NCBI RefSeq assembly: GCF_029784135.1
Contig: NC_073745.1
Coordinates: 52,280,285-52,344,284 of the forward strand
Source of the DNA: Toxorhynchites rutilus septentrionalis
Taxonomy: Eukaryota > Arthropoda > Insecta > Diptera > Culicidae
Length of the DNA stretch: 64,000 nucleotides
Direction: 5' to 3'
Below the pieces are notes generated by a model. The model searched no databases. It had not been told where the DNA came from and worked only from the letters and a program-made list of their open reading frames with translations. Shown here piece by piece: positions 14,476 to 60,423 of the stretch (the stretch's first letter is position 1; every line of letters starts with the position of its first letter). Made by a program: the position numbers and the translations under genes.

Positions 14476-14997
14476 TTTTGACGTAGGACTACGTCTAACC
14501 GGAAGATATAGGGGGTGAAATGGAAATCTAGGCACTGAACAAGTAGGAAAAAATGCAAGATTTGGAACGCTTATAACTCGAGCATTTCTCAATAGATCGC
14601 AAAGGTTTTTGCATCAATTGATAGGAAATATATCTACGCATCTATCATAACGAATAACATTTCATTTTTCTTGAGATAAATAAATGAATAATTGTGAAAT
14701 ATCAAGCATTGTCAAAATGCACTATGTGCCCATTTTTGATTGGCCCATTTTGTGCTCCTCAAATCGTACCGACCAAAACGGGCAACCAGAGCAGCAGCGA
14801 AATAGAATGAAGCACGATTGGAAAGGAAAAAGAAAAAAATGAACGAAACATTTGTCGCAGTCTCATACATGCGTTATTCTCGAGCCAGCCAGTCAGCTTA
14901 AAAATCCCCGCTCCGCTGCCGTAACGATCATTCTCATTCAAACCGTACACCACATCGGTTCGCATCACAACACATCAACAAACCAACCCAAGCAGCC

Positions 14998-15215
14998 ATG
15001 TCTGGACATGGTAAAGGAGGAAAAGTGAAGGGAAAGGCAAAATCCCGCTCGAACCGTGTTGATCTGGAGTTCCCCGCAAGGGTAGCTAGGCCGAGCGCGT
15101 TAGTACCAGTGCACCGGTCCACCTAGCCGGCGTTATATAGTTTCGGCCGCCGAAGTGATCGAGTTAGCTGGCAAAGCTGCTCGCGACGATAAGAAAACCC
15201 GCATTCGGAACAGAA
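14998..15215 (+). pseudogene. Histone H2A relic 1, copy A
   Basis: The ATG at 14998 opens MSGHGKGGKVKGKAKSRSNR, almost identical to the H2A N-terminus. About eight codons (VGRIHRLL) are then missing, which shifts the frame. The histone fold resumes as KGS, stop, AERVSTSAPVHLAGVI, with TAG where Tyr belongs in NYAERV. The helix corresponding to ELAGNAARDNKKTRI is readable near 15165-15215. H2A homology fades after KTRI. The 5' leader (CATCAACAAACCAACCCAAG) and a 3' stem-loop downstream indicate capture of genomic gene sequence. The gene cannot make a histone. Confidence 0.85.
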
Positions 15216-15384
15216 CACATTCGGTTCGGTGGACATCAAGACAACAGGCAGTTGCAGCGAGTGGCAAACGCAATCGCAAAACGGCATCAGGTAGCAGAAG
15301 AAAAAAGTTTGTTCTTTATACAAACTGCTTTGGTGGCAAATCCAGAACAAGGCGGCATCGAGGACGTTCGAATTGGTTTTTTTC

Positions 15385-15424
15385 AAAACCACGAGTACTA
15401 TGTTTTCTTAGTACTCGTGGTTTT
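15385..15424. repeat. 16-bp inverted repeat with 8-base loop
   Basis: AAAACCACGAGTACTA at 15385-15400 and its exact complement at 15409-15424 flank TGTTTTCT. Copies B and C keep only one arm, so the hairpin is specific to copy A or was lost from the others. Confidence 0.85.
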
Positions 15425-15445
15425 TGGAACCATTCCATAAAACAA

Positions 15446-15484
15446 GGTGCTTTTCAGGGCCATTAAACCTTCCAAAAAAGAGTT
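15446..15484 (+). promoter_or_regulatory. Histone stem-loop after H2A relic 1 (copy A)
   Basis: GGTGCTTTTCAGGGCC at 15446-15461 matches the histone stem-loop consensus except for mismatched stem bases. A purine-rich AAAAAAGAG follows at about 15475, in the position of the U7 snRNA-pairing element. Confidence 0.75.
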
Positions 15485-16032
15485 TAGGAAATACAGTTCA
15501 ATGCTTTCTAAAACATTATCCAAAATAATAATAAAACACAAATAGATTTTTTCATCATTTGTTTGCCAGGATCTGATGAGTATGTGAATTTGGCAGTTGT
15601 TCTGAGCTTATTGATAGTTGGGGACTTTCCTGATTATTCAATTTTCACCAATTCTTAAATTGTTTCCAGATTGAAAGTACAGTAATTTACAATTAGTTCG
15701 ACATTTAGCTAATTGGACGGACATGTAATGCGACTTATTTAGTTGGACATTTTTGTAAACATAGAGATCCAAATTATGACCCCACATTGAAAGTCGACAC
15801 TGTACCACTGTCATCGCAAATGTTCAATTACAGGTTAAAATTACCTCCAATCCGATACTGAGTGGTGGTAATGCGACATGCCATTGAATGTAATTTACTG
15901 TAAAATATGTCACAAGCTGGATGGGAAGAAATTTTCCAACTGTGAAAGCTGTGGCGAGTGGCAAATGCAATCGCTAAACAGAAAGGTTTAGCCGAACAAG
16001 ATGGGGATATCGAGTGATAACAAAACAATAAA

Positions 16033-16073
16033 CTCTTTAGATTGAAGATAATTTTGTGATCCTGAAAAGGACC
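16033..16073 (-). promoter_or_regulatory. Minus-strand histone stem-loop (copy A)
   Basis: Read on the minus strand, GGTCCTTTTCAGGATC (16058-16073) is followed by ACA and then AAAGAG (plus-strand CTCTTT at 16033-16038). It marks the 3' end of a gene transcribed leftward, of which only a promoter-like region and this end remain. Because it diverges from the H2A relic at 16309, H2B is the natural guess. No H2B codons can be read. Confidence 0.75.
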
Positions 16074-16233
16074 CTTTTTAGCCTGCATGTGAATCCAACG
16101 AGCGAACAAATCGTAATGAATGTATTTTTTTGCCATCGCTCCCTTTTAACGCTCATTCGTTCGTCTCGTTGGACTCGCCCCACTGGCTGAGTCTGCCGAT
16201 TTGTCTCTATCCTATGAGTGTGTACCGCTAGAG

Positions 16234-16240
16234 TATAAAA
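16234..16240 (+). promoter_or_regulatory. TATA box of H2A relic 2 (copy A)
   Basis: TATAAAA lies 75 bases before the H2A-like start. It is conserved in copies B (44397-44403, minus) and C (59687-59693). Confidence 0.7.
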
Positions 16241-16308
16241 CACGCGGACCCCAAAAAATATCTTATTTTCTTTCAAACCGTAAACCCGTGTGGTTGTACG
16301 GCATCTGC

Positions 16309-16540
16309 ATCGTGGACGTAACAAAGGAGGACAAGTTAAGGGAAAGGCAAAGTCTCACTCGAACCGTGCAGGTCTCCAGTTCCCTGTTGGTCGCATTCAC
16401 TGATTACTCCGCAAGGGTAACTAGGCCGAACGGATTGGTGCCGGAGCACCAGTATACCTAACAGCGATTATAGAGTTTCGGCTGTCGGAGTGCTCGAGTT
16501 GGCTTGCAAAGCTGCTCACGACAATCAGAAAACACGCATC
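16309..16540 (+). pseudogene. Histone H2A relic 2, copy A
   Basis: The original start codon is changed (ATCGTGGACG). The frame then reads [18 protein letters not shown] and [11 protein letters not shown], followed by a stop (TGA for Arg) and LLRKGN, then a second stop (TAG for Tyr) and AERIGAGAPVYLTAIIEF. After a frameshift it reads LELACKAAHDNQKTRI. This covers about 80 residues of the histone fold. H2A similarity ends after KTRI, and the following 230 bases up to the stem-loop at 16780 do not read as the H2A C-terminus. It shares with relic 1 the Tyr-to-stop, Met-to-Ile and Asn-to-Lys changes, so the two probably descend from one already damaged copy. Confidence 0.88.
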
Positions 16541-16779
16541 AAGAACAGAGCAGCTTCGGTTCGGCGCTCATCAAGGCAACAATTAGTTTCAGTGAGTGGC
16601 AAAGTGTTTCTCCGGCACGTCGCATTAAATGTAATTTACTGAACAACATGTCACAAGCTGGATGGGATGAAATTTTCCAATTGTGAAAGCTGTGGCGAGT
16701 GGCAAACGCAATAGCTAAACAGGAAGGTTTAACCGAACAAGATGGGAATATCGAGTGATAACAAAAACACAACACCAAA

Positions 16780-16815
16780 GGTTCTTATCAGAACCATCAA
16801 CATATTCATAAAGAG
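16780..16815 (+). promoter_or_regulatory. Histone stem-loop after H2A relic 2 (copy A)
   Basis: GGTTCTTATCAGAACC at 16780-16795 has a perfect six-base stem but one loop base changed (TTAT for TTTT). ATCAAC follows, and AAAGAG lies at 16810-16815. The same site in B and C has the canonical TTTTCA loop. Confidence 0.8.
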
Positions 16816-16974
16816 TAAACAGTAAACTAATCCATTTTTCAGGTAGATAGGTAGGTATTCACGTAGGAGAAGAAAATAAAACAATATATTTAACAAAAGC
16901 TGTCCCCTTTGTATAGTCCTACGTCACTCCGGTTATGTCCCCGACATTACCCACCCGTCTTTTTTATATTTCCA

Positions 16975-17270
16975 AAGGGTCTGTCTGGCTGGGTAAGGGA
17001 GCAGAAAGTGCCCCCAAACTAAATCACCAGCTGTATGGAAAATATTGTATAGGGTACTGAATAAAACATTTTGGCAGCAGTACCATTTATTTGAGTCCTT
17101 ATATGGTAAACCATAGGATCTATGGTGAAAAATGCACCTTTTTGTTTTTTTTCACGCCATTTTCAATAGCTTTGAGACAAAAATAAGAAAAAAAATACTG
17201 AAAGTACATCTTACTAAGGTGTATAGATTAATATCTTCAAAAAATGTTTTCATCAAAAAGTCTAATAATT
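16975..17270 (+). repeat. Interspersed repeat R2, copy 2
   Basis: It starts CCAAAGGGTCTGTCTGGC and GGGTAAGGGAG, and runs parallel to 46605-46900 almost base for base, including TATGGTAAACCATAGG. It immediately follows histone element copy A. Confidence 0.8.
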
Positions 17271-17279
17271 AAAAAATTA

Positions 17280-18687: not shown

Positions 18688-18699
18688 TATACGGAATGG

Positions 18700-19225
18700 C
18701 ATGCTGGTTTCGAGCGATGAAAGCGGTCAGCGGTTTGTACAATGGGAGGAATCCCGAAAGAGCCTATCCCTACAAAAATTAGGATAGTTTAAAGTACATA
18801 TTTGATCATGTATTCGACAACACAATGAACTATTTATCCCTGAGTTTCGATTTTTTTTTCGGAAGAGGGGTGATGTGTAGAGGGTGAATGTGATCCTTCT
18901 ATTACATCCAATGCATTTCACTTGCAATGCGTTGTCTTCCCTTTTATTTTATTACGCAGCACGAGCTCTCGCCTCCTCGGTATTTCTGGCAGCGGTGAAA
19001 GCTAGACCTGTGTACTGCGTAAAAAACAAAAAGCATCTCCGAAATGGCTGGTCTTTTGGTGGGTAAAATCACACAGACTGCACGATTCCGAGGTGTTTTC
19101 TCATGTGATGATGGTGATGAGTTGAGGAGTTCCAGGTGCTTGCGCAAAATTAAAATAAAATAAAATTAATTATCGAATTTGAAGAACCTACCATGTCCAT
19201 TTTGTTTATTGGCCCAAAAAAACTA
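18700..19225. other. Non-coding stretch
   Basis: No gene or recurring repeat is recognised here. Confidence 0.4.
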
Positions 19226-19480
19226 TGGATGGGTTATACCTATGATATAACCGTAAGGTTGACGTAGGACTGCCGTTGGATTAGTAATCAATTGTGTTTC
19301 TTCAATTAACAATAATCCCACCTCGGATGTTCCTCATTAGGTACGATATTGCCGCTGCGCAGAGTTATCTTTTGTGTGTATTGATTAAATTATTTATTAA
19401 ACTAGTGAATGAATGGAACTATTTACGAACTCAATTGCGAACAAATCCCAATTTAAGTTAATTCATGCATTATAGTAGTA

Positions 19481-20774
19481 CAGGGTTTTCCATTTCGGGC
19501 TTCCGAAAGTATACAGCCCTGCGCTGACAACCGTTTGACATAGCTGTCAACCAAAGCGTCATATCGTTAGTTGAATGTCTGCCATTTTACAATATGGATC
19601 GTTTTAGTATCACACAACGTGTTAATTTTGTTAAATTATACAATAAAAATGATGAAAAACCGGCAAATGTTTTTCGAGCATTACGGACGAATTTTGGTCG
19701 TCATGGACGGCCTACAGAGCACACAATCGCTAATGTAGTGCGTAAATTCGAACAAACTGGATCTGTAGCGGATATTTTGAAACCTGTACATCATCGTAAT
19801 GTGCGTTCGGCCGAAAATATTGCTGCTGTTGCTGCCAGTGTGGAGGATGACCCGAATGTTCCGATTTCACGGCGTGCTCAGCAATTGGGCTTGTCAAACA
19901 CATCATTGTGGTGAATTTTGCATTTGGACTTGCACCTACATCCATATGAAGTCCAACTGGTACAAAAATTAGAGCGTGGTGACCATGGAATGCGTCGGGC
20001 ATACGTCGATTGGGTGAACGAACAACAGCAGCATCAAATTTTCTTCAGCGATGAGGCACATTTCGAGCTCGGTGGCTATGTGAACACCCAAAATTTCCGT
20101 ATATGGGGCTCAGAAAATCCACACGTGATTGTTGAGAGGCCATTGAATCCGCCAAAAGTCACTGTTTGGTGCGCAATATGGTCTGGTGGAGTCATCGGGC
20201 CGTATTTCTTTGAAAATGAGGACGGCGAGACGGTAACTGTGAATGGTGTGAGCGCTATGGCTGCATGTTAACCGATTTTTTTTTTTTTGCCACAAATTGA
20301 AGATATGGAAACGGATGACATGTGGTTTCAGCAGGACGGCGCCACGTGCCACACAACACGACCGAACATGGCCATATTGCAAACGAAATTTGAGGGACGC
20401 ATAATTTCGCGTTTTGGTGATGCCAATTAGCCGTCCAGATCATGCGATTTGAACCCGCTAGACTTTTTTTTTTGTGGGGTTATGCGAAAGACCGTGTCTA
20501 TGCCAACTCTCCGCGAACTCTTGAACATTTGAAAGACAACATTCGTGAAGTTATGACCGAGATACCGCCCCATATGTGCCGAAAAGTCATCGAAAATTAC
20601 CTGTTCCGGATCAAGGTGTGCGAGGGAACCCTAGGTGGACATTTGAATGATGTTGTATTTCACACATAATGGCATAAACCAAACTTTAATTTGAAATAAA
20701 AGTTTCATCGAAATTCGAATTCTAAGTGTGTTTTATTTCAATTTACTTTCGGAATTTAAAGTTGGAAAACCCTG
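19481..20774 (+). mobile_element. Mariner-like element, DD41D type
   Basis: Terminal inverted repeats begin CAGGGTTTTCCA on both sides, with CTTCCGAAAGTA and TTCCGAAAGTA further in. TA flanks both ends (19479-19480, 20775-20776). It holds one broken transposase gene and is inserted in a GACGTAG-family element. Confidence 0.9.
19594..20669 (+). pseudogene. DD41D mariner transposase, inactivated
   Basis: It starts MDRFSITQRVNFVKLYNKND with a helix-turn-helix region ending around KFEQTGSVAD. The catalytic residues are in FFSDEAHFELGGY, WFQQDGATCHTT and CDLNPLDFFLWGY. I count 41 residues between the second and third Asp, which places it in the DD41D (rosa-like) group. Stops at 19915, 20269 and about 20430, plus a T-run with a frameshift at 20278-20290, inactivate it. 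All three catalytic Asp codons survive, so damage is fairly recent. Confidence 0.85.
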
Positions 20775-20899
20775 TAGTTATCGCAGCAAATAGTTATCAA
20801 CATTTTGCCTAATCATCAAACGGTATGCGTAAAAGTTCAGTGAGCTGGCGAAATGGAGAGATATCCCCCAATGCAGTCTTGAATAGTCGAGCCAAAGCG

Positions 20900-21170
20900 T
20901 TGCGTTTGTACCCGCTTATGTAGACCGCGTAAGCGGAATTCCGGAGTGTAAAAATGCACGGGGATATAAAAGTATAGCCGACTTGGATGTATCTGCAATG
21001 CCGATTTTCCCAACTTCTTGGTGCCGGAATTTGTAATGGGAATACACCTTCCGGTTTGCAAAAATGCAAGCGAGTACAAAAGTACCCCCCGCTTGCATCT
21101 AATTTGCTATGCCGATTTCAACATCCCCTGGCTCCATGGTTTTGAAGTCTGTGTTAGGAAAACATCCATC
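20900..21170. repeat. Minisatellite units in the 19226-21495 element
   Basis: Two to three diverged units with GATGTATCTGCAATGCCGAT-like and GCGAGTACAAAAGTACCCCC-like blocks match the units at 29960-30680. Confidence 0.65.
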
Positions 21171-21497
21171 CATTCCAGCGATCGTACCTCAATCGTTGCG
21201 CAACCATAACTGAGTGGATTTCCGAGCGGCACTCGCTTATATACCGATTGGTGTGATTTCAATGGCCTGTTTTGAAAGCAATTTTAAGGCTATTGAAACA
21301 AGTTTTTGGATCAAAAAGTAACAAGCATATAATGCTTAGACATTTTATCTTTCGAATGAAGTGTTTATCATACCATTTCGTTCAGTTGTTTAGGAGCTAT
21401 CAAGGCTCAAAATCTCGATCTCCAGCGTAACGCTTTCGTTTTCGAAACTTTGAAATTACACCCCAGTATAGAAATGAAAGACGTAGTCCTACGTCAA

Positions 21498-29700: not shown

Positions 29701-29759
29701 CTGAATTTAATAGTTTTCTTTAAAAATCCTACGCTAGATTAAATTTAGAAGAAGAAAAA

Positions 29760-30947
29760 TGGGTGGGTTATATCTATGATATTACCGCAAGGTTGACGTG
29801 GGACTACCTTAGCTTAGTAATCATTTGTTTGTATTGATTAAATTTTTGATTGAATAAAACAATTTCCGAGTTCAATTGAATTCAATATATTTGCGTTGTG
29901 AGAAAAAATTTGGACAAATGCAATGTCTCTAGTGTCTGCACGATCTTACCAGGTACCTATGTTTAGAAGACCGTGTTAGGGAAACGCATTCTAGTCTGTA
30001 CAAAGGTAAGCGAGTACAAAAGTACTCGCAGTTTGCATGTATTTTCAATGCCGATTTCCCCAGACACCTTGGTTTAGAAGTTTTTATAGGTAATCAAATT
30101 TCAGTCGGAACAAAAATACTCCCGACCTGCATGAATTTGCAATCAATTTTCCTAGACACCTTGGTTTTGAAGCCTGTGTTGAGGAAACATATATTAGTCG
30201 GAACAAAAATGCCCTCGACTTGCATGTATTTGCAATGCCAATTTCCCCTCGCTCCATGGATTTGAAGTCTGTGTTAGGGAAACACATTTCAGTCGGAACA
30301 AAAATGCCCCCCCCCCCCCCCGAAAGCATGAATTCGCAATGCAAATTTTCCCAAGTTCCTTGGATTTGAAGTCTGTGTTATGGAAACACATTTCAGTTGG
30401 AACAAAAATACCCCCGACTTGCATGTATTTGCAATGCCAACTTCCCCACGCTCCTTGAATTTGAAGTCTGTGTTAGGGAAACACATTTCGGTGGGAACAA
30501 AAGCTCCCCCTACTTTCATGTATTTGCAATGTCGGTTTCGCCTATGCTGCTTGGTTTTGAAGTCTGTGTTAGGGAACACATTTCGGAGAGAACAAAAGTC
30601 CCCCTACTTTCATGTATTTGCAATTCCGATTTCCCTAAGGCTGCTTGGTTTTGAAGTCTGTGTTGGGGAAACCGTAAAGCGGGCCAATCAAAACGAGGCA
30701 GTACGGGCGTTTAGATAACGCTTAACATTTTACAGTTATTCAATTATTTACCTAATGGAAAATAACACTTTACTAATTGCGATAGATGCGTAGAAATATT
30801 CCCTATCAATTGATGCAAACATCTTTCCGATTCAGTAGAAAATGTTCGAGTTATAAGCATTCGAAATCTTGCATTTTTTCCTGCATGTTCAGTGTTTATG
30901 TTTTCATTTTACCCCCCATATATTCCGGTTAGACGTAGTCCCACGTC
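29760..30947 (-). mobile_element. GACGTAG-family element with minisatellite cargo
   Basis: On the minus strand it starts GACGTGGGACTACGTC at 30947, carries the approximately 280-bp left domain shared with the histone copies, then seven to eight minisatellite units. It ends with CCCACGTCAACCTTGCGG and ACCCACCCA at 29760. A-runs (T-runs in its own orientation) flank both sides. There is no coding capacity. Confidence 0.8.
29960..30680. repeat. Minisatellite, about 91-95-bp unit, seven to eight units
   Basis: AAGTCTGTGTTAGGGAAACA recurs about every 91-95 bases with CATGTATTTGCAATGCC-like blocks. One unit has a run of 15 C at 30307-30321 where others have three to five. Confidence 0.9.
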
Positions 30948-32525: not shown

Positions 32526-33599
32526 ATCAGTTTCTGTTCTGCTTTCGCATGGAACAATCATGAAAAATTGCCACATCACGATAAAAACGAAATTAATTTT
32601 ATGCAAGGTTATATAGACATTATTTCGTTTTCACCGTGAAGTGGCGCCCTCAGTTTCTATTCTGCGCATGGAGTGATCATGAAAAATCTTGTGTTATTCT
32701 CACAAAAACAGAAATGAATCATGTATCAAACATCTTCAATTGCTTTTACAAGGTCAATCAAATTCCAACGGTTCGTTTCGGGACCACCAACAAGTTCGAA
32801 AGAGTTGAATTTTATGTTAATAACAATTCCATACTTATACTCATCCGACCACACATTAAAAAGAAAAGCTTTCAGCAATCTTTCATAATATTCATTCATT
32901 CATTCATGCGGTTATATCACAGATATAACTCTCTTCTTGTTTTTTTTTGACCAAATATGATCAAAGCATACTTGATATAGTAGGTACATGTATGAAATAA
33001 GCTTGGCCTATACACCTAAAGTCTCAATTTAATTTTTCTCATGCATACAAAAATGTTGTAAGAAACACATAACGTTCCGCATAATATGGCTTCGTTTAGT
33101 AGCAGTGGCATATTTTTCCAGGGTCAAAGCCACAAAAGGAACCTCTTCAAGAGCAGAATGTGATGAGGTATATCAGTTTTAGTAAACAGAACATTGTAAG
33201 TGAATATCACCTATGACCACTTTGCCCTCAAACACGAAAGAAATCTCTATGCTAATTAATCGCGGATATTGAACAAATGTCTGTTCACATCTACTAGAAT
33301 AGGTGAACAGTTGTCCAAACTGATGATTTGTCCATCATATCAGATTGAATATACTAAATTTCACGTGAAATTCCTTAGATACCCTACGCACAGAACTACG
33401 GCCCAATGGCTATCGAGAGAGCAATTTTTGTTTTTATTCATATTTTGACAGCTCTACTTAAGTACAGGGTGACTCAAAAGTCATTAAATTCTCCAAACAT
33501 AAGGTGACTATCAATACGGTTTTAATAGTCAATAGTTATACTACCAAACACGCAGGTGACCACTTTGCCCCCCATGATCAATTTGCCCCCACCACCCCT

Positions 33600-38342: not shown

Positions 38343-38582
38343 TTTAGATAGAGAGGTCGGAGATATCACTGTTTTTCAGTGGAATTGTCGTAGTCTTATC
38401 CCTAAATTGGATACATTCAAATTTTTAATTCATAACTTCAATTGTGATGTTTTTGCTCTGTCCGAAACTTGGCTTTCTTCGCGAGATGATATCTCTATCC
38501 ACGATTTTAATATTATACGCTTGGACCGCGATGACAGATACGGAGGGGTACTATTGGGGATCAATAAGTGCCACTCATTTTT

Positions 38583-39468
38583 GACGTGGGACTACGTCTA
38601 ACCGGAATATATGGGGGGTAAAATGAAAACATAATTACTGAACATGCAGGAAAAAATGCAAGATTTCGAATGCTTATAACTCGAACATTTTCTACTGGAT
38701 CGGAAAGATGTTTGCATCAATTGATAGGGAATATTTCTACGCATCTATCGCAATACATAAAATGTTGTTTTTCATTATATAAATAATTAAATAACTGTGA
38801 AGTGTTAAGCGTTATCTAAACGCCCTAACTGTCTCGTTTTGATTGGCCCGCTTTACGGGTTCCCCAACACAGACTTCAAAACCAAGCAGCCTTGGAGAAA
38901 TCGACATTGCAAATACATGAACGTCGGGGGTATTTTTGTTCCGGTTAATATGTATTTCCCTAACACAGACTACACATCCATGGAGCGTAGGGAAATTGAC
39001 ATTGCAAATTCATGCAGGTCGGGGGTATTTTTGTTTCGACTGAAATGTGTTTCCCCAACACAAACATCGGAACCAAGGTGTCTGAGGAAATTGGCATTGC
39101 AAATTCATACGAGTTAGGGGCATTTTTGTTCCGAATGAAACGAGTTTCCCTAACACAGACTTCCAACCAAGATGTCTTGGTTAATGGGCTTTACAAATAA
39201 ATGCAAACTGCGAGTACTTTTGTAGAAGTTGAAGTTGTTGATTCATGCAAGCCGGTGGTACTTCTGCACCCGCATGTTTTTTTTTGCACTCCGAAAAGTG
39301 TTTTCCTAACACGGATTACAATAATGGGTACGAACATAACGCTTTGGCTCGGTTATTCAAGATTGCATTGAAGGAAATGCCATCATATCTTCTGCTCACT
39401 GAAATGATTGCTAAGCTTAGGTAATCCCACGTCAACCTTGCGGTTATATTATAGATATAACCCACCCA
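38583..39468 (+). mobile_element. GACGTAG-family element inside LINE ORF2
   Basis: The left end is GACGTGGGACTACGTC after five T. The right end is CCCACGTCAACCTTGCGG through ACCCACCCA before six T. The first 270 bases match the left domain of the histone copies and of 30947-30680. Minisatellite units lie at 38860-39260. Removing it joins KCHSF to the next LINE residues at a T-run, so the boundaries are well defined apart from the T-run itself. Confidence 0.88.
38860..39260. repeat. Minisatellite units in the ORF2 insertion
   Basis: Four units with CCCTAACACAGAC-like starts and GTCGGGGGTATTTTTGTT-like ends, in the opposite orientation to 29960-30680. Confidence 0.8.
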
Positions 39469-42400
39469 TTTTTTCGAATTGACCTTCCACCTATTGGAGG
39501 GATCGAAGCTGTTGCTTGTCATGCAAACATCAGAGGTAAAGACCTCTGTATTGTCAGCTTGTATTGGCCTCCGAGAGCTGCGGTTAGCCGCAAACAACTT
39601 GATGACATGTGCTCACTTCTTCCTGAGCCACGATTGATCTTGGGAGACTTCAACTCTCACGGAACTGCCTGGGGGGAACAGTACGACGACAATCGTTCAT
39701 TGTTGATATATGACCTTTGTAACAACTTCAATATGACCGTTTTGAACACTGGGGAAACAACACGTGTGCCTAAACCTCCTGCTAACCCAAGTGCTCTTGA
39801 CCTCTCGCTTTGCTCGAATTCACTATCGTTAGATTGCAAGTGGAATGTAATCCAGGACCCCAACGGTAGTGATCACTTGCCAATCAAAATTTCCATCACC
39901 ATTGGGTCGAATTCTTCTGAATCTATAAACATGGCATATGACCTCACAAGACACATTGACTGGAAAAAATATGCGGACGCGATTGCTCTAGCCATCAATT
40001 CCAGAGATGGTTTACCTCCATTGGAGGAGTATAACTTCCTTTCTCGTTTGATCTATGACAGCGCGGTTCGCGCTCAAACGAAACCTATCCCAGGTTCCAC
40101 TATTCGTCGAAGGCCTCCCAATCTATGGTGGGATAGCCAGTGTTCCAAGCTTTATGTAGAAAAATCGAATGCATTTAAAGCTTTTCGGAAACGTGGAACC
40201 CCTGAAAATTTTCAGACGTATTTGGACATTGAAAATCAATTTAAAAACTTGATCAAAGGGAAAAAACGTGCTTATTGGCGAAATTTCGTGGGAGGTTTGT
40301 CACGAGAAACGTCAATGAAAAAATTATGGAAAGTGGCTCGAAACATGAGAAATCGCTCTTCAACGAATGAAAGCGAAGAATATTCACATCGATGGATTTT
40401 TAATTTTGCACGGAAGGTTTGTCCTGATTCTGCTCCTGTGCAAAAAATTGTTCGAGATATACCACAAGATAGGTGCGATCTTGATTCCGAGTTTTCGATG
40501 GTAGAATTCTCTCTTGCTCTCCTTTCATGTAACAATTTTGCTCCGGGATCGGATAGAATTAAGTTCAACTTGCTGAAAAATCTCCCTGATGTGGCGAAAC
40601 ATCGCTTGTTGAACTTATTCAATCGGTTTCTGGAGCATAATATTGTTCCAGATGATTGGAGACAAGTACGAGTTATAGCTATTCAAAAACCCGGAAAACC
40701 CGCGTCCGACTTCAATTCTTACCGCCCAATAGCAATGCTGTCTTGTATACGGAAATTGTTGGAGAAAATGATCTTGTTTCGCCTTGATCGATGGGTTGAA
40801 ACGAATGGCCTACTCTCAGATACACAATATGGGTTCCGCAGGGGCAAGGGGACGAATGATTGTCTTGCGTTGCTTTCTTCAGAAATTCAAATGGCTTACG
40901 CCGAAAAAAAAACAAATGGCTTCAGTATTCTTGGACATAAAGGGGGCCTTTGATTCTGTTTCAATAGAGGTTTTGTCAGACAAATTACACTCTCGGGGTC
41001 TGCCGCCTCTATTGAATAATATGTTATATAACTTGCTTTGTGAAAAACATTTGAACTTTTCTCACGGAGATTCGGCAGTAAGTCGGGTCTCTTACATGGG
41101 ACTCCCCCAGGGCTCATGTTTAAGCCCCCTTTTGTACAACTTCTATGTAAGCGACATCGACAATTGCCTTACACAAAATTGCAGCCTAAGACAACTTGCA
41201 GATGATGGAGTGGTGTCTGTCGTAGGATCAAACGAATCCGACCTGCAAGGACCCTTACAAGATACTTTGAACAATTTTTCAACCTGGGCCATTGGGCTAG
41301 GGATCGAATTCTCCACGGAGAAAACAGAGATGGTGGTTTTTTCTAGGAAGCATAGACCAGCAAAACCAAAGCTTCATCTTTTGGGTAAACCGATCACTCA
41401 TGCTATGTCATTCAAGTATCTTGGGGTCTGGTTCGACTCCAAATGTACTTGGGGGGCCCATATTAGGTATCTGAGTAAAAAATGTCAACAAAGAATAAAC
41501 TTTCTCCGTACAATTACCGGCACCTGGTGGGGAACCCATCCCGAAGATCTTATTATGTTGTATCGAACAACTATTCTCTCAGTGATGGAGTATGGCAGTT
41601 TCTGTTTTCAATCAGCTGCCAAAACACACCTCATTAAACTCGAGCGAATTCAGTATCTTTGTCTCCGTATTGCGTTGGGATGTATGCCCTCAACGCATAC
41701 CATGAGTCTCGAGGTTTTGGCAGGCGTACTCCCACTAAAAGATCGCTTCAATTTATTATCTCTTCGGTTCCTCATCCGGTGTAAGGTTATGAATCCATTG
41801 GTGATCGGAAATTTTGAGCAATTGATCGAGCTAAATTTTCATTCTGGATTCATGAATTCATATCATGAATTCACCTCTATGCAGGTTGTTCCTTCTTCGT
41901 ATATTCCCAACCGTATTTGTTTTCCTGACTACATCAATTCCTCTGTACATTTCGATCTGTTCATGAAGGAGAAAATCCATGAAAATCCAGATTATCTTAG
42001 ATTGGGGTTCGTTCCTACAATCTTCAATGCAAAGTATGGGCGTATCAATTGTGATAATATGTACTTTACTGATGGGTCCTCTATGAATGAGTCCACAGGA
42101 TTTGGAGTGTTCAACGTATTTTTTAGCACCTCACACAGTCTTGCTCGGTATATATTGCTGAATTGGCAGCGATATACTGGGCGCTGGACAGCGTCGCCTC
42201 ACGACCTGTTGAACACTATTACATTGTAACGGATAGTCTTAGCTCTGTCGAAGCTATCCGTTCAGTGAGGCCGGAAAAGCACTCGCCGTACTTCCTTGAG
42301 AGAATACGAGAAATTTTGAGTGCTTTATCCAGACGCTGTTATGTCATTACCTTTGTCTGGGTCCCTTCACATTGCTCCATTTCGGGTAATGAGAGGGCTG

Positions 42401-43255
42401 ACTCATTGGCAAAGGTAGGTGCAATTGAAGGCGATATTTATCAGCGTCAAATCGCCTTCAATGAATTTTATCCTTTAGTCCGCAAAAATACCATCGCTAA
42501 CTGGCAACGCAAGTGGAACGAAGATGAATTGGGTCGGTGGCTTCACTCGATTATCCCTAAGGTTAGCCTCAAACCGTGGTTCAAAAGTCTAGACTTGAGT
42601 CGGGACTTTATCCGCACCTTCTCCCGACTCATGTCCAATCACTGTTCGTTAGATGCACTACTCTTTCGTTTCAATCTTGCCAGCAGCAATCTCTGCGTTT
42701 GTGGCCAAGGTTATCACGACATCGAGCACATTGTTTGGTCGTGCGAGGTGTATCTGGTCGCCAGATCGAATTTAGAAAACTCCCTTCGGGCCCGAGGAAG
42801 ACAGCCCAATGTGCCGGTGAGAGATGTGTTGCCTCGGTTAGACCTTGATTACATGTCCCATATATATGTTTTCCTTAAAGCTATAGATCTTCGTGTGTGA
42901 TTGCCCCTACATCCTTATACCCTCCTTTCCTTCCTTTGCGGGTAATTCGTCCCCTTGCTATAAATAGTAGAATAAGTAGAAATGTAAATAAACTATTGAT
43001 ATACGAATAGATTTAAGTATTGAGTGCTCATCAACATTGTTACAATTTCCTTATATCCCATCCTTCTCCTAAAAATATGTCACCCTTCTAAACTCGAGTA
43101 CACCGCGAGTAATCGGTTTTCCACCTTACTAACCATAGATGTAAGAAAATTGTTTATATATATAGTTTTAAAATTATATTTAAGAATTCGGCTCCTTTAA
43201 ACTTAAGTAACTGAGCCTGTAAAAATAAACGAATTAAAAAAAAAAACAAGTTAGA

Positions 43256-45920: not shown

Positions 45921-46370
45921 GATCGTTACGGCAGCGGAGCGGGGATTTTTAAGCTGACTGGCTGGCTCGAGAATTACGCATGTGTGAGACTGCGACCAAT
46001 GTTTCGTTCATTTTTTTCTTCTTCCTTTCCAATCGTACTCCATTCTATTTCGCTGCTGCTCTGGTTGCCCGTTTTGGTCGGTACGATTTGAGGAGCACAA
46101 AATGGACCAATCAAAAATGGGCACATAGTTCATTTGGACAATGCTTGATATTTCACAATTATTCAATTATTTATCTCAAGAAAAATTAAATGTTATTAGT
46201 TATGATAGAGACGTAGATATATTTCCTATCAATTGATGCAAGAACCTTTGCGATCTATTTAGAAATGCTCGAGTTATAAGCGTTCCAAATCTTGCATTTT
46301 TTCCTACTTGTTCAGTGCCTAGATTTCCATTTCACCCCCTATATCTTCCGGTTAGACGTAGTCCTACGTC

Positions 46371-46604: not shown

Positions 46605-46900
46605 TCCAAAGGGCCTGGCCGGTTAAGAAAGTAAAAATTGCCCCCAAACCAAACACCAGCTGTATGGAAAATATTGTATAGGGTACTAAATAAAGCATTT
46701 TGGCAGTAGTACCATATATTTGAGTCCTTATATGGTACACCATAGGATGATCTATGGTGAAAAATGCACCTTTTAATTTCTTCACGTCATTCTCAATAGC
46801 TTTGAGACAAAAATATGAAAAAAAAATACTGAAATTACATCTTACTTAGGCGTATCGATAAATATCTTCAAACAAATTTTTCATAAAAAAAAATGTGGTA
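46605..46900 (+). repeat. Interspersed repeat R2, copy 5
   Basis: It is an uninterrupted copy parallel to 16975-17270, starting ATTTCCAAAGGGCCTGGCC. It serves as the reference for the empty site of copy B. Confidence 0.8.
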
Positions 46901-52332: not shown

Positions 52333-52547
52333 GGAAGGAAGGAAGGAAGGTCTTGTATTATATAGACTTTAAACTCTTGCAGTTCATTCGTCTCTAGCCT
52401 TGAGAAAGGCCCTTTGAAAACTCTACTCTACTCTATTACTCTACTCCAGCGCTACCACCTCCACCCTCTTGCCTTGCGAAAGGCACTCGATCCCCGTCCA
52501 GCTCGTCCAGCAACGATGTTGTCCAGTCGGTTTCCACACAAAGAATG
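52333..52547 (-). mobile_element. SINE-like element, independent insertion
   Basis: This is the same 215-217-bp element as in histone copies B and C, here flanked by its own 10-bp duplication TAGGAAAGAA (52323-52332, 52548-52557). The distinct target shows that the sequence is mobile by itself. Confidence 0.78.
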
Positions 52548-52674
52548 TAGGAAAGAAAAGATAAACAAACAGCAATATACCCGCTTGGTGGCATTTTTGG
52601 AGAAAATCCTGACGTATCCATAGGACGTAAATTTGTTTATTTAGACTCGGACGATCATTATGGTTGATTATGTA

Positions 52675-53473: not shown

Positions 53474-54285
53474 ATGGCAAACCCGATCCCGGATCCCGAA
53501 CTAATTCCCTCAACTTCAAATTTTTCTCCACGTTTCGTGGTTGACACCTCTTTATCATTTCATGAGGGTCAGTTCAGCAATTGTTATGGACGAAGCGTGG
53601 AAAGGCCACGAATCAACTTTAATAAAATTATACAATATGATCGCGCTAGACACTTTCATAAGAGATCTAGGGGAACCGCTTTCAATGTTTTGTAAAAATT
53701 TTAAACCAGAAAGTCTCGCAAGAGCATACCATTATTGCATAGTCTACCAAAATTTGGATGCAAGAAATGCTCCTCTCAAAGGACATCCAAGATCCCGCTC
53801 CAAGATCTAATATTCCGCAACCGCTTCCACCACCACGGCCTTCAAAGCCATTCCAAATAATAAACCAAAGAAACTTTCAACAACCTATGAACCAAAGGAA
53901 TTTCCAACATCCCACTAATCAAGGAAACTTTCAACAAAAGCCAAATCTTCCTCCCAAGTTAAACTTTCCCAACAAATACAACACCCAACAGCAGAAAGTA
54001 GAACCGATGGACGTTGATCAGTCCATACGCTCTAGAATGGTTGATTACGGTAATCGGCAAAAATTTTCTAGGCCCTCATCAGCCTCGATGCAATATCAGT
54101 TACCGGAACCAAAACGAGTAGCGCATCAATTAGAAGAATTACCAACAGAAGAAGAATATCTTCTTCAAACTGAAGATGTGAAAACTGATTATGATCAAGA
54201 AGAAGTTTCCAACGAATCAGAAGATGAAAACACTGTCAATTTTTTAGAAAGAGACATGAAATGGATGAGCAAATGGTGCGATTAA
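53474..54285 (+). pseudogene. gag, shortened and frameshifted
   Basis: MANPIPDPELIPSTSNF at 53474 opens the first frame. The sequence shifts to a second frame near 53570 (LDTFIRDLGEPLSMFCKNF, the capsid C-terminal region with the usual GL-EPL pattern) and to a third near 53750. The tail, rich in Asn, Gln and Pro (QRNFQQPMNQRNFQHP, then KVEPMDVDQSIRSRM), runs to 54285. The usual capsid N-terminal part is missing, so there is an internal deletion as well as frameshifts. The last frame overlaps the protease frame by 25 bases in the -1 direction, consistent with gag-pol frameshifting in intact relatives. It cannot yield a normal capsid. Confidence 0.75.
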
Positions 54286-54740
54286 GAACACAAGTTTCTC
54301 CGCTACCTTACATAAAAGTGCCCACGACAAGAGGTGAAATTAAACTTCTCGTCGATAGTGGCGCTAACATAAATTTAATCTCTAGAAAATGGGCTTACAA
54401 TTCTGGAAAAATCGTACATAAAATTCCAAATGAACCAGTAAAGGGTGTAACAGGTAAAGATTACGTTTCCGAAGTAGTTAAATTAGACATTTTTCAACCT
54501 ATCGTAGACAACGAATTTGAATTTCTAGTCTTCGATTTTCATCCCTTCTTCGATGGTTTAATCGGAACCGAAATAATCTTCAATGAGAGTTTTAACCTCA
54601 TGACAAATAAAAAAAATTTATCTGTTTCAGGAGAAAAACAAAATTTGAAAATTCCTCTATACTCTTATTCCCCAACTCTTTCACAAAGAAGATTAAACAA
54701 TGTCAACAATTTGAGTACAGTTGTTAGAACATCACATTAA
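54261..54740 (+). pseudogene. pol protease domain, cut off before RT
   Basis: The aspartic protease motif LLVDSGANINLISRKW (about 54348-54395) is intact, and the flap-region and second-lobe segments DFHPFFDGLIGTEII follow. The frame ends at 54740 where RT should begin. The open frame is short but otherwise undamaged. Confidence 0.85.
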
Positions 54741-55987
54741 CACCGACGCAACACTCTGCCGATGATGATGATAATAATTATATCATCTCAACAGAAGCCC
54801 CTTTGAATGCCTTTCGCCTACAAATAATTTTAGAAACAACAGACACAGCACCCGACGTAATAACCACTAACCCCTTTCCCGGTTTCACAAGAATAACGAT
54901 AAAAAGGACTAGATACGACGAACCAATTTTAACAGCTTTAATGAAAGAATTTTTTGCACCTTCAAAACTGATTGGTTTACACACAACCGAAGCAATCTTA
55001 GGCCAACAACAAGAAATTTACAAAAAGTTTTTCAGCCGATCCGGCCTTTTGAAAATTCGATTCACGCAAAACATTCTTCAAGACATAACCGACCCGGACG
55101 TACAACAGAGAATAATACAGGAGACACATGAGAGAGCACACCGTGGTATCGACGAAAATAAACAAATTTTGAGGAAATATTATTTTCCGAAATTAACTGA
55201 TAAAATTCGTCAGTATGTGCGTGTTTGCGATCTCTGCAATGAAACCAAATATGACAGACAGCCTCTTGTGATTCCACTTCAAGAAACACCAACACCTAAT
55301 CTTCCATATGAAATTCTTCACATAGACGTTTTCCAAATCGAATCCAACTACTTTTTATCAAGCCTTGATAAATTTAGTAAGTTTGGACGAATGATCCCCA
55401 TCAAATCCCGACACGCTGTCCATATTGTTCAAGCAATATGGGAAACAGTAACAACCTTCATAGTCCCAAATGCAATCGCTGTTGACAACGAACGTGCTTT
55501 TCAATCACCCGATATTCGTGGAAAATTGATAGATTTAAATGTAAGGGTATACCTAACTCCCAATAGTAAATCCGAAGTAAACGGACCGGTAGAAAGATTT
55601 CATTCTACCATCATCGAACTTTACAGAATCCAAAAACAACTAACCCCCCGTCTACCTCCCCGTAACATAATTCACATAGTTGTGGAAAAGTATAATAACA
55701 CGATCCACTCAGTTACTTTAAAGAAACCTAAAGAAATTCTATTTGGAAAAAGACAAGACTCAGACGTACCAATCGACCCAGATCGACTAGAACAAATTAG
55801 ACAGAAAATGTACGACGAAACTATAGTAAAAATCAAAGAAGCCCAAACAAAACAATTAGAAAAGTTCAATAAAAATAGAAAATCCGCCCCACAGTTAGAA
55901 GTAGGTCAAATGGTTTACACTAAGGATAAAATTATAAAGCCGAAACATAAAAAATTGTTTAAAAAAAACCCATGTGCAAGAAAATAA
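54740..55987 (+). pseudogene. pol integrase domain, without upstream RT/RNase H
   Basis: A spacer with an acidic DDDDNNY run and EAPLNAFRLQIILE corresponds to the segment after RNase H in errantiviruses. The HHCC zinc domain follows (HERAHRG, then VCDLCNE). The DDE core is in EILHIDVFQIE, AIAVDNERAFQS and NGPVERFHSTI. The C-terminal region ends at 55987 with KKLFKKNPCARK, slightly shorter than usual. The catalytic residues are all present. Without its own start and RT it cannot be made as part of a normal pol. Confidence 0.88.
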
Positions 55988-56069
55988 CGAAATCACCTTC
56001 AAAAATGTGAGAAACTCCAAATTACACAAAACGAATGTAAAAAAATATTAGTTTGAAATCTTAATCTTT

Positions 56070-56075
56070 CAGGGT
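56070..56075 (+). promoter_or_regulatory. Candidate env splice acceptor
   Basis: A pyrimidine-rich TTAATCTTTCAG ends at about 56072, after which the env frame is open for 87 codons before the first internal Met at 56335. Env of gypsy-type elements is made from a spliced RNA, so this is the expected layout. Confidence 0.5.
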
Positions 56076-57564
56076 TCAAGCTGCGCTTGGAAATATTATT
56101 ATCAGGAATGTAAATCAAGACCATGTAGCTGTTGTCCATCTAGAAAATTGCAAGATTATAGAGGGCTATAAGAAGATAGTTCATGAGATAAATACCACTT
56201 TCATACAACAAACACTACTGGACATAAAAGACCAAGTACTTATTCGACAAGACAATGATAACGAGATAACAACCATACTAAGACGAAAAATCCTCGAACT
56301 CGAGAACAACCTGAAACAAATCAAACCCGGACGAATGAAACGATGGGATGCACTTGGCAGAGCCTGGAAATGGATGTCCGGCTCCCCAGACACTGACGAC
56401 CTCAAAATTATAAATAAAGATTTAAATGATATCTCGGACAACAACAACAAACAAATCAATATAAATGACGAACTGTACCAAGGGGTAGATAATATAACGG
56501 ATAGCATCAACAAATTGATTATTTCTAACGAAAAAACGAATACAGCAATAGATCTTTTGAACATTATAATGAATTTAGACATTCTAAATGAAGAATTCAG
56601 TAACATTCACGATGCAATACTACTAGCAAGACTAGAAATAATAAACAGAAAACTGCTCAACTCTAAAGAGATCGATTTGATAGGTCAGATTCTTAGCAAG
56701 CAGGGAATCTCCCCAGTACTTTTGGATGCGGCACTCGGCTTTGCGACCACCACCATTGGAACCAACGGAGAGATCATCTTGTACATCATCAACATCCCCC
56801 ACTTTGGAAACCTAACGTACCAACATCTTAAAATTGAACCCGTAATATCCAACTCGAAACGCATAAAACTGGATGGCAACGAATACCTCTACGGTGACGA
56901 TAAACTCTACATTAAAACTGATATTTGTCGTAAATTAGGCAATTGGAGCCTATGTAATCTGTCTGATCTTGAAGACGTCCCAGAAAACAGTTGCATTTTT
57001 AACATAATATCTGGCAAAAACAGCAGATGCAATTACGAACAAATTTTACATCATCCAATAGTAACCGAAATGAGTCAAACAACTCTGTTATTGAATGAGG
57101 TGAATGACACATTACGAAACACTTGTGGAATATCGAACAGAAACCTAACAGGATCATTTTTGATCACTTATCAGAATTGTTCGGTATCAATAAGAAACTA
57201 TTCGTTCACAAACCAAGTGATCGAAACAATAAACCAACCGATCTACCTACCCTCTATAGGTTTAGAAATCTCTCAGCACCACATCGATTATCCCATGGAT
57301 ATTCATACATTGAACAAGTTGCACCACAAGAATTTGGAACGTTTGGAAAAGCTGCAATTGACATCGGAGACACATCATTGGACACTCATTGGAGGATTAA
57401 CCTCCTCATCAACAATAATGCTTCTGTTTACTTTTTATGTCTTATTCAGGATCAGACGTCAGTCAGCTACAGTTATCATAACAGAAACCAGAGCAGACGA
57501 ACCGGAGATGGCTAGCAACAATAAACCTACTTTTTTATTCCAACCCCAGTCGTTAGGAGTCTGA
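56074..57564 (+). CDS. env: Errantivirus-type envelope protein
   Basis: The frame is open from the candidate splice acceptor at about 56072 to TGA at 57564, about 496 codons. RMKR at about 56332-56343 is a furin-type cleavage site, directly followed by the conserved WDALGRAWKWMSGSPD segment that marks insect gypsy-group Env. A coiled-coil-prone region follows. A membrane anchor lies near the C-terminus (SSTIMLLFTFYVLF) with a basic cytoplasmic tail. Insect errantivirus Env is related to baculovirus F proteins and acts in membrane fusion. No frameshift is seen in this part. The initiating ATG would come from the 5' exon, which I did not identify. Confidence 0.8.
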   Translation, partial: VQAALGNIIIRNVNQDHVAVVHLENCKIIEGYKKIVHEINTTFIQQTLLDIKDQVLIRQDNDNEITTILRRKILELENNLKQIKPGRMKRWDALGRAWKWMSGSPDTDDLKIINKDLNDISDNNNKQININDELYQGVDNITDSINKLIISNEKTNTAIDLLNIIMNLDILNEEFSNIHDAILLARLEIINRKLLNSKEIDLIGQILSKQGISPVLLDAALGFATTTIGTNGEIILYIINIPHFGNLTYQHLKIEPVISNSKRIKLDGNEYLYGDDKLYIKTDICRKLGNWSLCNLSDLEDVPENSCIFNIISGKNSRCNYEQILHHPIVTEMSQTTLLLNEVNDTLRNTCGISNRNLTGSFLITYQNCSVSIRNYSFTNQVIETINQPIYLPSIGLEISQHHIDYPMDIHTLNKLHHKNLERLEKLQLTSETHHWTLIGGLTSSSTIMLLFTFYVLFRIRRQSATVIITETRADEPEMASNNKPTFLFQPQSLGV

Positions 57565-57606
57565 CCATTGACCCTTCGGACCGTTGAACCAGGAGGATCA
57601 ACACTT

Positions 57607-57617
57607 AGGAGGAGGGC
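57607..57617 (+). promoter_or_regulatory. Polypurine tract
   Basis: AGGAGGAGGGC sits directly before the 3' LTR, the normal position of the plus-strand primer. Confidence 0.8.
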
Positions 57618-57891: not shown

Positions 57892-58523
57892 TGTATAATA
57901 TTGATTTGTTGATATTTTGAGTATTGAATATTAATCGTGAAGTTTTTCCAACATTGTAGAGCAGGTTTTTGTAATTTCAACAATCGCACGATAGTTATAA
58001 CGGACGATTAAATACGATTAAAGGACGATTAAATATAATTATAAAAAGTAAGGCCATTATTTTTTTTTCTTTTGACGTAGGACTACGTCTAACCGGAAGA
58101 TATAGGGGGTGAAATGGAAATCTAGGCACTGAACAATTAGGAAAAAATGCAAGATTTGGAACGCTTATAACTCGAGCATTTCTCAATAGATCGCAAAGGT
58201 TTTTGCATCAATTGATAGGAAATATATCTACGCATCTATCATAACGAATAACATTTCATTTTTCTTAAGATAAATAATTGAATAATTGTGAAACATCAAG
58301 CATTGTCCAAATGCACTATGTGCCCATTTTTGATTGGTCCATTTTGTGCTCCTCAAATCGTACCGACCAAAATGGGCAACCAGAGCAGCAGCGAAATAGA
58401 ATGAAGCACGATTGGAAAGGAAAAAGAAAAAAATTAACGAAACATTGATCGCAGTCTCACACATGCGTAATTCTCGAGCCAGCCAGTCAGCTTAAAAATC
58501 CCCGCTCCGCTGCCGTAACGATC

Positions 58524-58740
58524 CTCATTCTTTGTGTGGACACCGACTGGACAACATCGTTGCTGGACGAGCTGGACGGCGAGGGATCGAGTGCCTTTCT
58601 CAAGGCAAGAGGGCAGAGGTGGTAGCGCTGGAGTAGAGTAATAGAGTAGAGTAGAGTTTTCAAAGGGCCTTTCTCAAGGCTAGAGACGAATGAACTGCAA
58701 AAGTTTAAAGTCTCTATAATACAAGACCTTCCTTCCTTCC
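58524..58740 (+). mobile_element. 217-bp SINE-like element in copy C
   Basis: It is flanked by GTAACGATC (58515-58523) and GCAACGATC (58741-58749), the same target as in copy B. The 3' end is AAGTCTCTATAATACAA with a CCTTCCTTCC tail. Confidence 0.78.
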
Positions 58741-58817
58741 GCAACGATCATTCTCATCCAAACCGTACACCACATCGTTTCGCATCACATCACATCAACA
58801 AACCAACACAAGCAGCC

Positions 58818-59011
58818 ATGATTGGATATGGCAAAGGAGGAAAAGTGGAGGGAAAGGCAAAATCCCGCTCGAACCGTGTTAGTCTGGAGATCCCCGCAAG
58901 GGTAGCTAGGCCGAGCGCGTTAGTACCAGTGCACCAGTCCACCTAGCCGGCGTTATATAGTTTCGGCCGCCGAAGTGGCAAAGCTGCTCGCGACGATAAG
59001 AAAACCCACAT
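58818..59011 (+). pseudogene. Histone H2A relic 1, copy C
   Basis: It reads MIGYGKGGKVEGKAKSRSNR and shows the same internal deletion and TAG for Tyr as copies A and B, plus an extra deletion before the AKLLATIRK helix. It is more diverged at the N-terminus than the other copies. Confidence 0.8.
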
Positions 59012-59511
59012 TCAGAACTGACCACATTCGGTTCGGTGATCAAGACAACAACAGGCAGTTGCAGCGAGTGGCGAGTGGCAAAAGAAATCGCAAAACGACA
59101 ACAGGTAGCGGAAGAAAAAAGTTTGTTCTTTATACAATCTGCTTTGGTGGCAAAACCAGAACAAGGCGGCATCGAGGGCGTTTTTTTCAAAACCACGAGT
59201 ACTAAGTTTTCTAAATCGGGGTCCAAATTATGACCCCACATTGAAAGTCGACACTGTACCACTGTCATCGCAAATGTTCAATTAGAGGTTAAAATTACCT
59301 CCAATCCGACACTGAGTGGTGGTAATGCGACGTGTCATTGAATGTAATTTCCTGTACAATATTTCACAAGCTGGATGGGAAGAAATTTTCCAACTGAGAA
59401 AGCTGTGGCGAGTGGCAAACGCAATCGCTAAACAGAAAGGTTTAGCCGAACAAGATGGGGATATCGAGTGATGACAAAACAATAAACTCTTTAGATTGAA
59501 GATAATTTTGT

Positions 59512-59527
59512 GATCCTGAAAAGGACC
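59512..59527 (-). promoter_or_regulatory. Minus-strand histone stem-loop (copy C)
   Basis: On the minus strand it reads GGTCCTTTTCAGGATC, followed by ACA and AAAGAG, identical to copies A and B. Confidence 0.78.
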
Positions 59528-59686
59528 CTTTTTAGCCTTCATGTGAATCCAACGAGCGAACAAATCGTAATGAATGTATTTTTTGCCATCGCTCCCTTTT
59601 AACGCTCATTCGTTCGTCTCGTTGGACTCGCCCCTCTGGCTGAGTCTGCCGATTTGTCTCTATCCTGTGAGTGTGTACCGCTAGAG

Positions 59687-59693
59687 TATAAAA
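59687..59693 (+). promoter_or_regulatory. TATA box of H2A relic 2 (copy C)
   Basis: TATAAAA lies 75 bases before the H2A start, conserved in all three copies. Confidence 0.7.
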
Positions 59694-59761
59694 CACGCGG
59701 ACCTCAAAAAAATATCTTATTTTCTTTCAAACCGTAAACCCAACCACACGGCATCGGCATC

Positions 59762-59990
59762 ATGGACGTAACAAAGGAGGACAAGTTAAGGAAAAGGCAA
59801 AGTCTCACTCGAACCGTGCAGGTCTCCAGTTCCCTGTTGGTCGCATTCACTGATTGCTCCGCAAGGGTAACTAGACCGAACGGATTGGTGCCGGAGCACC
59901 AGTATACCTAACAGGGATTATAATGTTTCGGCCGTCGGAGTGCTCGAGTTGGCTTGCAAAGCTGCTCAAGACAACCAGAAAACCCGCATC
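59762..59990 (+). pseudogene. Histone H2A relic 2, copy C
   Basis: ATG is present (ATGGACGTAAC), then the same histone-fold segments as in copies A and B follow, with the same TGA for Arg and TAG for Tyr. The helix reads LACKAAQDNQKTRI. The stem-loop follows at 60231. Confidence 0.85.
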
Positions 59991-60230
59991 AAGAACAGAG
60001 CAGCTTCGGTTCGGCGCTCATCAAGGCAACAATTAGTTTCAGTGAGTGGCAAAATGTTTCTCCGGCACGTCGCATTAAATGTAATTTACTGAACAACATG
60101 TCACAAGCTGGATGGGAAGAAATTTTCCAACTGTGAAAGCTGTGGCGAGTGGCAAACGCAATAGCTAAACAGGAAGGTTTAACCGAACAAGAAGGGAATA
60201 TCGAGTGATAACAGAAAACACAACACCAAA

Positions 60231-60266
60231 GGTTCTTTTCAGAACCATCAACATATTCATAAAGAG
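60231..60266 (+). promoter_or_regulatory. Histone stem-loop after H2A relic 2 (copy C)
   Basis: GGTTCTTTTCAGAACC at 60231-60246 has a perfect stem and canonical loop. It is followed by ATCAAC and by AAAGAG at 60261-60266. Of all copies, this signal looks the most intact. Confidence 0.85.
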
Positions 60267-60423
60267 TAAACAGTAAACTAATCCATTTTTCAGGTAGATA
60301 GGTAGGTATTCACGTAGGAGAAGAAAATAAAACAATATATTTAAAATATATATTTAACAAAAGCTGTCCCCTTTGTATAGTCCTACGTCACTCCGCTTAT
60401 GTCCCCGACATTACCCACCCGTC

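Follow-up and report, generated by a model that had tools for sequence, protein, structure and literature searches.

A 64,000-nucleotide window of the genome of the mosquito Toxorhynchites rutilus septentrionalis (contig NC_073745.1, positions 52,280,285 to 52,344,284; coordinates below are those of the window) contains three copies of one mobile element, each carrying the decayed remains of histone H2A genes together with histone 3' processing signals. Judged by its structure, the carrier is very probably a non-autonomous Helentron (HINE), a class that the first-pass annotation of this DNA had left unnamed. We have high confidence in the overall explanation that a single HINE with captured, dead histone DNA spread as these three copies.

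The copies, which we call c1 (14480-16962, plus strand), c2 (46370-43657, minus strand) and c3 (58074-60426, plus strand), have exactly the same ends. The final three bases of each are T residues of the adjoining T-run, and 16959, 43660 and 60423 are equally valid end positions. When the copies were aligned with 700 bp of flank, their agreement extended from GACGTAGGACTACGTC to ACCCACCC, and the immediate flanks could not be aligned. The three copies proposed in the first-pass annotation were therefore located where it had placed them, to within the terminal T residues; its mobile family with fixed GACGTAG/ACCCACCC ends and H2A relics inside is likewise borne out, the shared ends being seen in all three copies. 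Identity over aligned bases is 97.0% between c1 and c2 (2390/2464), 95.8% between c1 and c3 (2010/2099) and 95.7% for the remaining pair (2238/2339). Copies of the same flanking repeat (D12, D13) occur around both c1 and c2. The copies also differ by larger gaps: a block of 226 alignment columns is present in c2 and c3 and missing from c1, and c3 has a 350-column deletion that removes the 3' part of the first H2A relic (relic A), including its stem-loop. Positions 52337-52552 are 95% identical to the 226-column block, which is thus itself a dispersed repeat. The 5' end of the element, searched as an exact pattern, has no match in viral or prokaryote DNA collections, a result that is uninformative about mosquitoes.

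The first 267 bases of c1-c3 (14480-14746 in c1) are 78-80% identical to the heads of two HINEs without histone sequence, e38 (38583-39470, plus strand) and e30 (29757-30947, minus strand), which belong to one family and are 86.6% identical over their first 589 bases. The bodies of these two relatives consist of 95-bp tandem repeats and show no histone match. Because relatives with the same 267-bp head carry tandem repeats instead, the histone block can be recognized as cargo, and the presence of either repeats or a histone block behind one head could result when a rolling-circle element captures DNA into its interior. Repeats related to the 95-bp unit also occur in e8 (6190-8254, plus strand, with its tail at 8192-8261; its 5' end was not found and its start is arbitrary) and in e19 (19223-21495, minus strand), the head of which is exact. 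A further HINE, e6 (4213-6176, plus strand), has the head at 4213 with one mismatch, a tail identified by profile and no recognized histone signal. In e6 there are also TATA-like sites and, near 4812, a short reading frame with an ATG; an exact HINE head at 29401 (plus strand), with no recognized tail of its own, adjoins e30.

HINEs have been described as having palindromic subterminal inverted repeats (subTIRs), a 3' palindrome, a T-rich target that is left unmodified and, in some copies, tandem repeats (Thomas, Vadnagara and Pritham, 2014; PMC4067079). The palindrome lies 8-35 bp from the 3' end, and in mite HINEs one subTIR is close to the 5' end and the other 38-60 bp away from the 3' end. 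The 5' end of c1 is a palindromic subterminal repeat, GACGTAGGACTACGTC (14480-14495), with 7-base arms, and it stands also at 46370 (minus strand) and 58074. The 3' end of c1 (16911-16962) comprises the inverted partner of this repeat, the palindrome GGTtATGTC-CCC-GACATtACC, ACCCACCCGTC and the T-run. The 5' palindrome and its 3' partner share 12 matching bases in c1-c3, and 9-14 across the seven elements for which both ends are present. In c1 the 3' palindrome ends 8 bp before 16959, which is within the published range. Over nine tails, 90.1% of the 81 pair cells in the palindrome are standard pairs, compared with 33-42% in slid controls, and the covariation score is high, being equalled by six of 500 shuffles. 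A profile built from seven tails recovered those seven and also the tails of e19 (E 4.9e-12) and of a degenerate element, e32 (E 4.2e-5), the next match having an E-value of 0.003. T-runs adjoin c1, c3, e38, e30 and e19, and c2 is bordered by a T-run at one end and by TT at the other.

Three insertions can be compared with their empty sites. When the flanks of c2 are joined without the element, they match uninterrupted repeats at 17139-17277 (72%) and 46781-46876 (74%), and the joined flanks of e19 match 21843-21738 (86%). The window holds no full-length paralogous empty site for e38, and in this case the site was derived from a reading frame, since the insertion lies in the endonuclease open reading frame (ORF) of a long interspersed nuclear element (LINE). 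With the flanks of e38 joined over a single T-run, for which lengths of 3-12 were tried, the frame is open for 3, 6, 9 and 12 T. Joined with six T, they read KCHSFFRIDLPP, and the LINE relatives P0024 and P0053 read KSHSFYRINLP and KCHSFYRIL unbroken; the alignment to these relatives was made with three T, giving one gap at that residue. At the empty sites of c2, e19 and e38, there is neither duplication nor loss apart from extra T residues of undecidable origin. A similar uncertainty in the number of T residues is described for Helentrons and HINEs in the same study (PMC4067079).

Several observations count against assigning c1-c3 to the HINEs. The window offers no continuous paralogous empty site for c1, c3 or e30, and the flanks of e38 hold about five T beyond its deduced empty site, where duplication of a T-run and T residues borne by the element are indistinguishable. 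The subTIR partner ends 34-36 bp before the element end as given here in c1-c3, e38, e30 and e19, and 27 bp before it in e6; this is slightly under the 38-60 bp of mite HINEs, the distance in c1-c3 being 37 or more when the terminal T residues are counted. The percentage of paired positions in the palindrome is unexceptional, being equalled by 85 of 500 shuffles, and most shuffles contain more of the further pair types (499 of 500 have at least as many). With blastn (same strand, E 0.001), c1-c3 match none of the other elements past base 267; the tails are alike at the profile level only. Finally, Pfam identified no Rep or helicase domain in eight of the 16 listed ORFs of at least 150 residues.

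Turning to the cargo, tblastn with H2A found two relics, A and B, in each of the three copies; both are broken by stops and frame changes in every copy, and no open H2A reading frame is left. The two H2A relics per copy of the first-pass annotation are thus present, with the qualification that relic A of c3 has lost its 3' end and stem-loop. In c1, relic A lies at 14998-15290 (end approximate) and has frameshifts, an internal deletion and a TAG in place of the Tyr39 codon; relic B lies at 16311-16757 (ends approximate) and has stops at Arg32 and Tyr39 (Met = 1) and a frameshift past the VMEY region. A frameshift-aware alignment of c1 to H2A scored 217 for A and 287 for B, the best of 60 shuffles being 60 and 55, respectively. 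The relic B piece of c1, with its two stops written as X, matches the Drosophila-type H2A in the PDB (2pyo_C) with an E-value of 5.9e-26; Pfam at E 0.001 returned no family for a 56-residue piece of relic B. When relics A and B were scored against H4, one and two of 60 shuffles, respectively, were as high, and we read these scores as a side effect of a similar glycine- and lysine-rich start.

The lesions themselves are informative. Since the Arg32 and Tyr39 stops of relic B are present in all three copies, the H2A gene was already dead before the copies spread. Relics A and B also have lesions in common, namely the stop at Tyr39, the deletion of a single base (TTTCTGGCC to TTTCGGC) and an altered segment after TRI, as judged against what we take to be the intact H2A codons. 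These shared lesions indicate that A and B are one damaged gene that was duplicated, or that they come from an already damaged pair, and on the same grounds we rejected the idea that two H2A genes were captured independently. The terminal block of relic B occurs again at 15876-16025 (plus strand; 91-92% identical to 16617-16766) and appears by eye to be degenerate H2A C-terminal sequence. Between the two relics of c1, at 15678-15905, there is what looks by eye like an insertion resembling a miniature inverted-repeat transposable element (MITE), with inverted ends, part of one end being seemingly repeated in relic B.

Histone 3' signals follow the relics. The Rfam model Histone3 (RF00032, gathering score 34) scored above its gathering score at 16775, 60226 and 43851 (minus strand), that is, after relic B in all three copies; in c1 the stem-loop and its downstream AAAGAG element occupy 16775-16819 (37.1 bits). 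Relic A of c1 is followed at 15446-15482 by the stem-loop GGTGCTTTTCAGGGCC, a pattern match, and an AAAGAG element (15477-15482). The stem-loop pattern GGYYCTTWTCAGRRCC, allowed up to two mismatches, occurs 13 times (one stem-loop being counted on both strands), against 0.56 expected and a maximum of three in 100 shuffles, and these matches are distributed as 11 in c1-c3, one in e8 and one in e32. Similarly, at a loose Rfam threshold (E up to 10), Histone3 accounted for 11 of the 24 listed matches, all 11 of them in c1-c3, e8 or e32. The stem is able to pair in all three histone-bearing copies.

The first-pass annotation had also described a divergent, gutted gene. Its 3' end can be recognized in c1 as the stem-loop GGTCCTTTTCAGGATC with a downstream AAAGAG (16032-16078, minus strand; Histone3 18 bits, below the gathering score). 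Its body is not readable as a core histone: none of the four scored beyond shuffles, of which 32 (H2A), 38 (H2B), 20 (H3) and 54 (H4) of 60 were as high. Also present in the cargo are a TATA-like site, leader-like sequence and AAAGAG downstream of the stem-loop; the promoter and leader are named by motif and position, as is the putative TATA box of relic B (TATAAAA, 16234-16240). The AAAGAG element of histone genes is located beyond the mRNA cleavage site, and its presence here therefore favors capture at the DNA level. Together with the TATA-like site and the leader-like sequence, it lends support to the annotation's proposal that the histone DNA would have been acquired in this way, a route suggested by the sequence features themselves.

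Histone-like 3' ends are also found near other HINE tails. In e8, a histone stem-loop with AAAGAG (8112-8156, plus strand; Histone3 28.9 bits, below 34; pattern without mismatch) lies about 100 bp before the element end, and e32 (32765-32935, plus strand; 5' end not found) consists of a degenerate stem-loop at 32765-32810 (20.4 bits, E 0.59) and a degenerate tail at 32905-32936. Both matches are below the gathering score, on the strand of the HINE tail and within 150 bp of the tail end. A weak tblastn match to H2B in e8 (7948-8094, E 5.2) was equalled by five of 60 shuffles and is not claimed; in e32 no core histone exceeded shuffles (H2A 24, H2B 14, H3 28 and H4 46 of 60 as high). In e19, a piece resembling U4 small nuclear RNA (snRNA) at 19366-19297 (minus strand; 44.6 bits against a gathering score of 46) ends 74 bp before the element end, and a mariner-like transposon, recognized by eye at 20770-19480, seems to be nested in this element. 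Neither Histone3 nor U4 matched in e38, e30 or e6. In all, five of nine HINE tails, c1-c3 included, have a stem-loop no more than 180 bp from the end, or three of six families by our own grouping, in which e38 and e30 count as one. A post hoc estimate of our own, in which the six tails outside c1-c3 contribute 180 bp each out of 128,000 strand-bases, puts a single match at about 0.008 and the pair at about 7e-5. We treat this recurrence of histone 3' signals close to HINE tails as a lead, not a result. A broader notion strikes us as rather unlikely: HINE lineages of this mosquito would have repeatedly acquired histone and snRNA 3' ends, which came to sit immediately inside the 3' terminus. Mosquito Helentrons would then habitually take sequence from replication-phase genes with non-polyadenylated ends, or keep it once taken, and their transcription or replication might thereby be linked to S phase.

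In the history that we propose, an ancestral HINE with this type of head and tail would have taken a segment of a histone cluster into its interior by DNA-level capture. That segment would have covered an H2A region, from the promoter side through the 3' stem-loop to the downstream element, and also the 3' end of a histone gene in the opposite orientation. The captured genes are dead, their stops and frameshifts predating the three copies, and both H2A relics trace to one damaged gene or a damaged pair. The element may then have spread by rolling-circle replication into T-runs, with an autonomous Helentron presumably providing Rep, helicase and endonuclease in trans. The histone sequence would have traveled as passenger DNA.

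Another history would dispense with a transposon and derive the copies from a decayed histone cluster whose parts were dispersed by segmental duplication or inversion. The H2A relics do occur together with a divergent histone 3' end, and c1 and c2 do lie among copies of one flanking repeat, as such a history would have it; however, the ends are identical where the immediate flanks cannot be aligned, c2 interrupts a repeat that has uninterrupted relatives in the window, and the same head is found on elements without a histone match, all of which leave this possibility scarcely credible. If a transposon is accepted, its class might still be that of an ordinary DNA transposon with terminal inverted repeats, similar to a MITE, rather than a Helentron. 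Inverted repeats are present at both ends, MITE-like repeats are seen by eye nearby, and the T-run junctions are compatible with a short duplication of T. Yet the repeat is asymmetric, one arm at the very 5' end and the other 34-36 bp short of the 3' end and followed by a palindrome, and the sites of c2, e19 and e38 lack a target duplication except possibly of T residues, so that we regard this assignment as highly unlikely.

A different question is whether the stem-loop and AAAGAG have been retained for a function in the element, such as forming the 3' end of an unpolyadenylated, replication-phase transcript, rather than being carried along as passengers. The proximity of stem-loops to five of the nine tails (three of six families), the pairing retained in the three histone-bearing copies, and signals that remain recognizable in e8 and e32 with no readable core histone upstream would all be consistent with this. 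On the other hand, three of the nine tails (e38, e30 and e6) have no such signal, e19 has a U4-like piece in its place, c3 has lost the stem-loop of relic A, and the signals of e32 are weak. We consider such a function improbable, and prefer the account of a HINE with dead passenger histone DNA.

Other elements share the window. The retrotransposon interrupted by e38 (36780-42900) is of the type without long terminal repeats (LTRs), with an ORF1 and Pfam matches to endonuclease, reverse transcriptase and RNase H domains, and is closest to Toxorhynchites proteins. Its reverse transcriptase ORF (40787-42229) is 89% identical (over 51% of the query) and 94% identical (over 17%) to T. rutilus proteins, 73% identical (over 73%) to a protein of Uranotaenia lowii and 67% identical (over 86%) to one of Aedes albopictus. 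The LINE ORF1 is 76% identical over 98% of its length to a T. rutilus protein, among the 7990 candidates sharing most words that were scored. These similarities favor a host close to Toxorhynchites over Aedes, the genus on which the first-pass annotation had centered its proposed comparisons, although LINE similarity indicates a species without proving it. The ORFs of an LTR retroelement, with integrase domains at 54803-55984, and then a further long ORF lie at 53758-57564.

The first-pass annotation had held that no mosquito element of this kind was described. This is contradicted by Helentron-Cq-32A of Culex quinquefasciatus, eight copies of which are described as containing fragments of two histone genes (Thomas, Vadnagara and Pritham, 2014; PMC4067079). 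As described there, that element shares with c1-c3 a mosquito host, palindromic subTIRs, a 3' stem-loop, insertion into T-runs, and histone fragments with a premature stop, a frame shift and indels; it differs in having an autonomous form and in the reported identity of its fragments, H4 superfamily and H15 (PMC4067079). The element studied here, compared by description only, carries H2A twice with 3' processing signals, is non-autonomous and resides in another mosquito. H15 is the linker histone. Our element is thus of the same kind as Helentron-Cq-32A and new in its H2A cargo. With HINEs and DINE-1 it shares the absence of a protein of its own, subTIRs, a 3' palindrome and a T-rich target, with tandem repeats in its relatives e38, e30 and e8; unlike them it bears histone cargo, and its subTIR partner is closer to the 3' end by a few bases. 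Gene-capturing canonical Helitrons, as in maize and bats, offer a parallel in the DNA-level capture of host gene segments and in a presumed rolling-circle spread, whereas they insert between A and T and are without such subTIRs. No further report of a histone-carrying Helentron was recognized in titles and the openings of abstracts, a search whose coverage mostly excludes subscription journals.

These findings describe a second mosquito lineage of Helentron type with histone cargo, consisting here of H2A and its 3' processing signals and found beside histone-free relatives with the same head in a single window. Should HINE tails prove enriched for nearby histone 3' ends across the genome, this would be a testable hint of non-random capture by Helentrons from histone loci.

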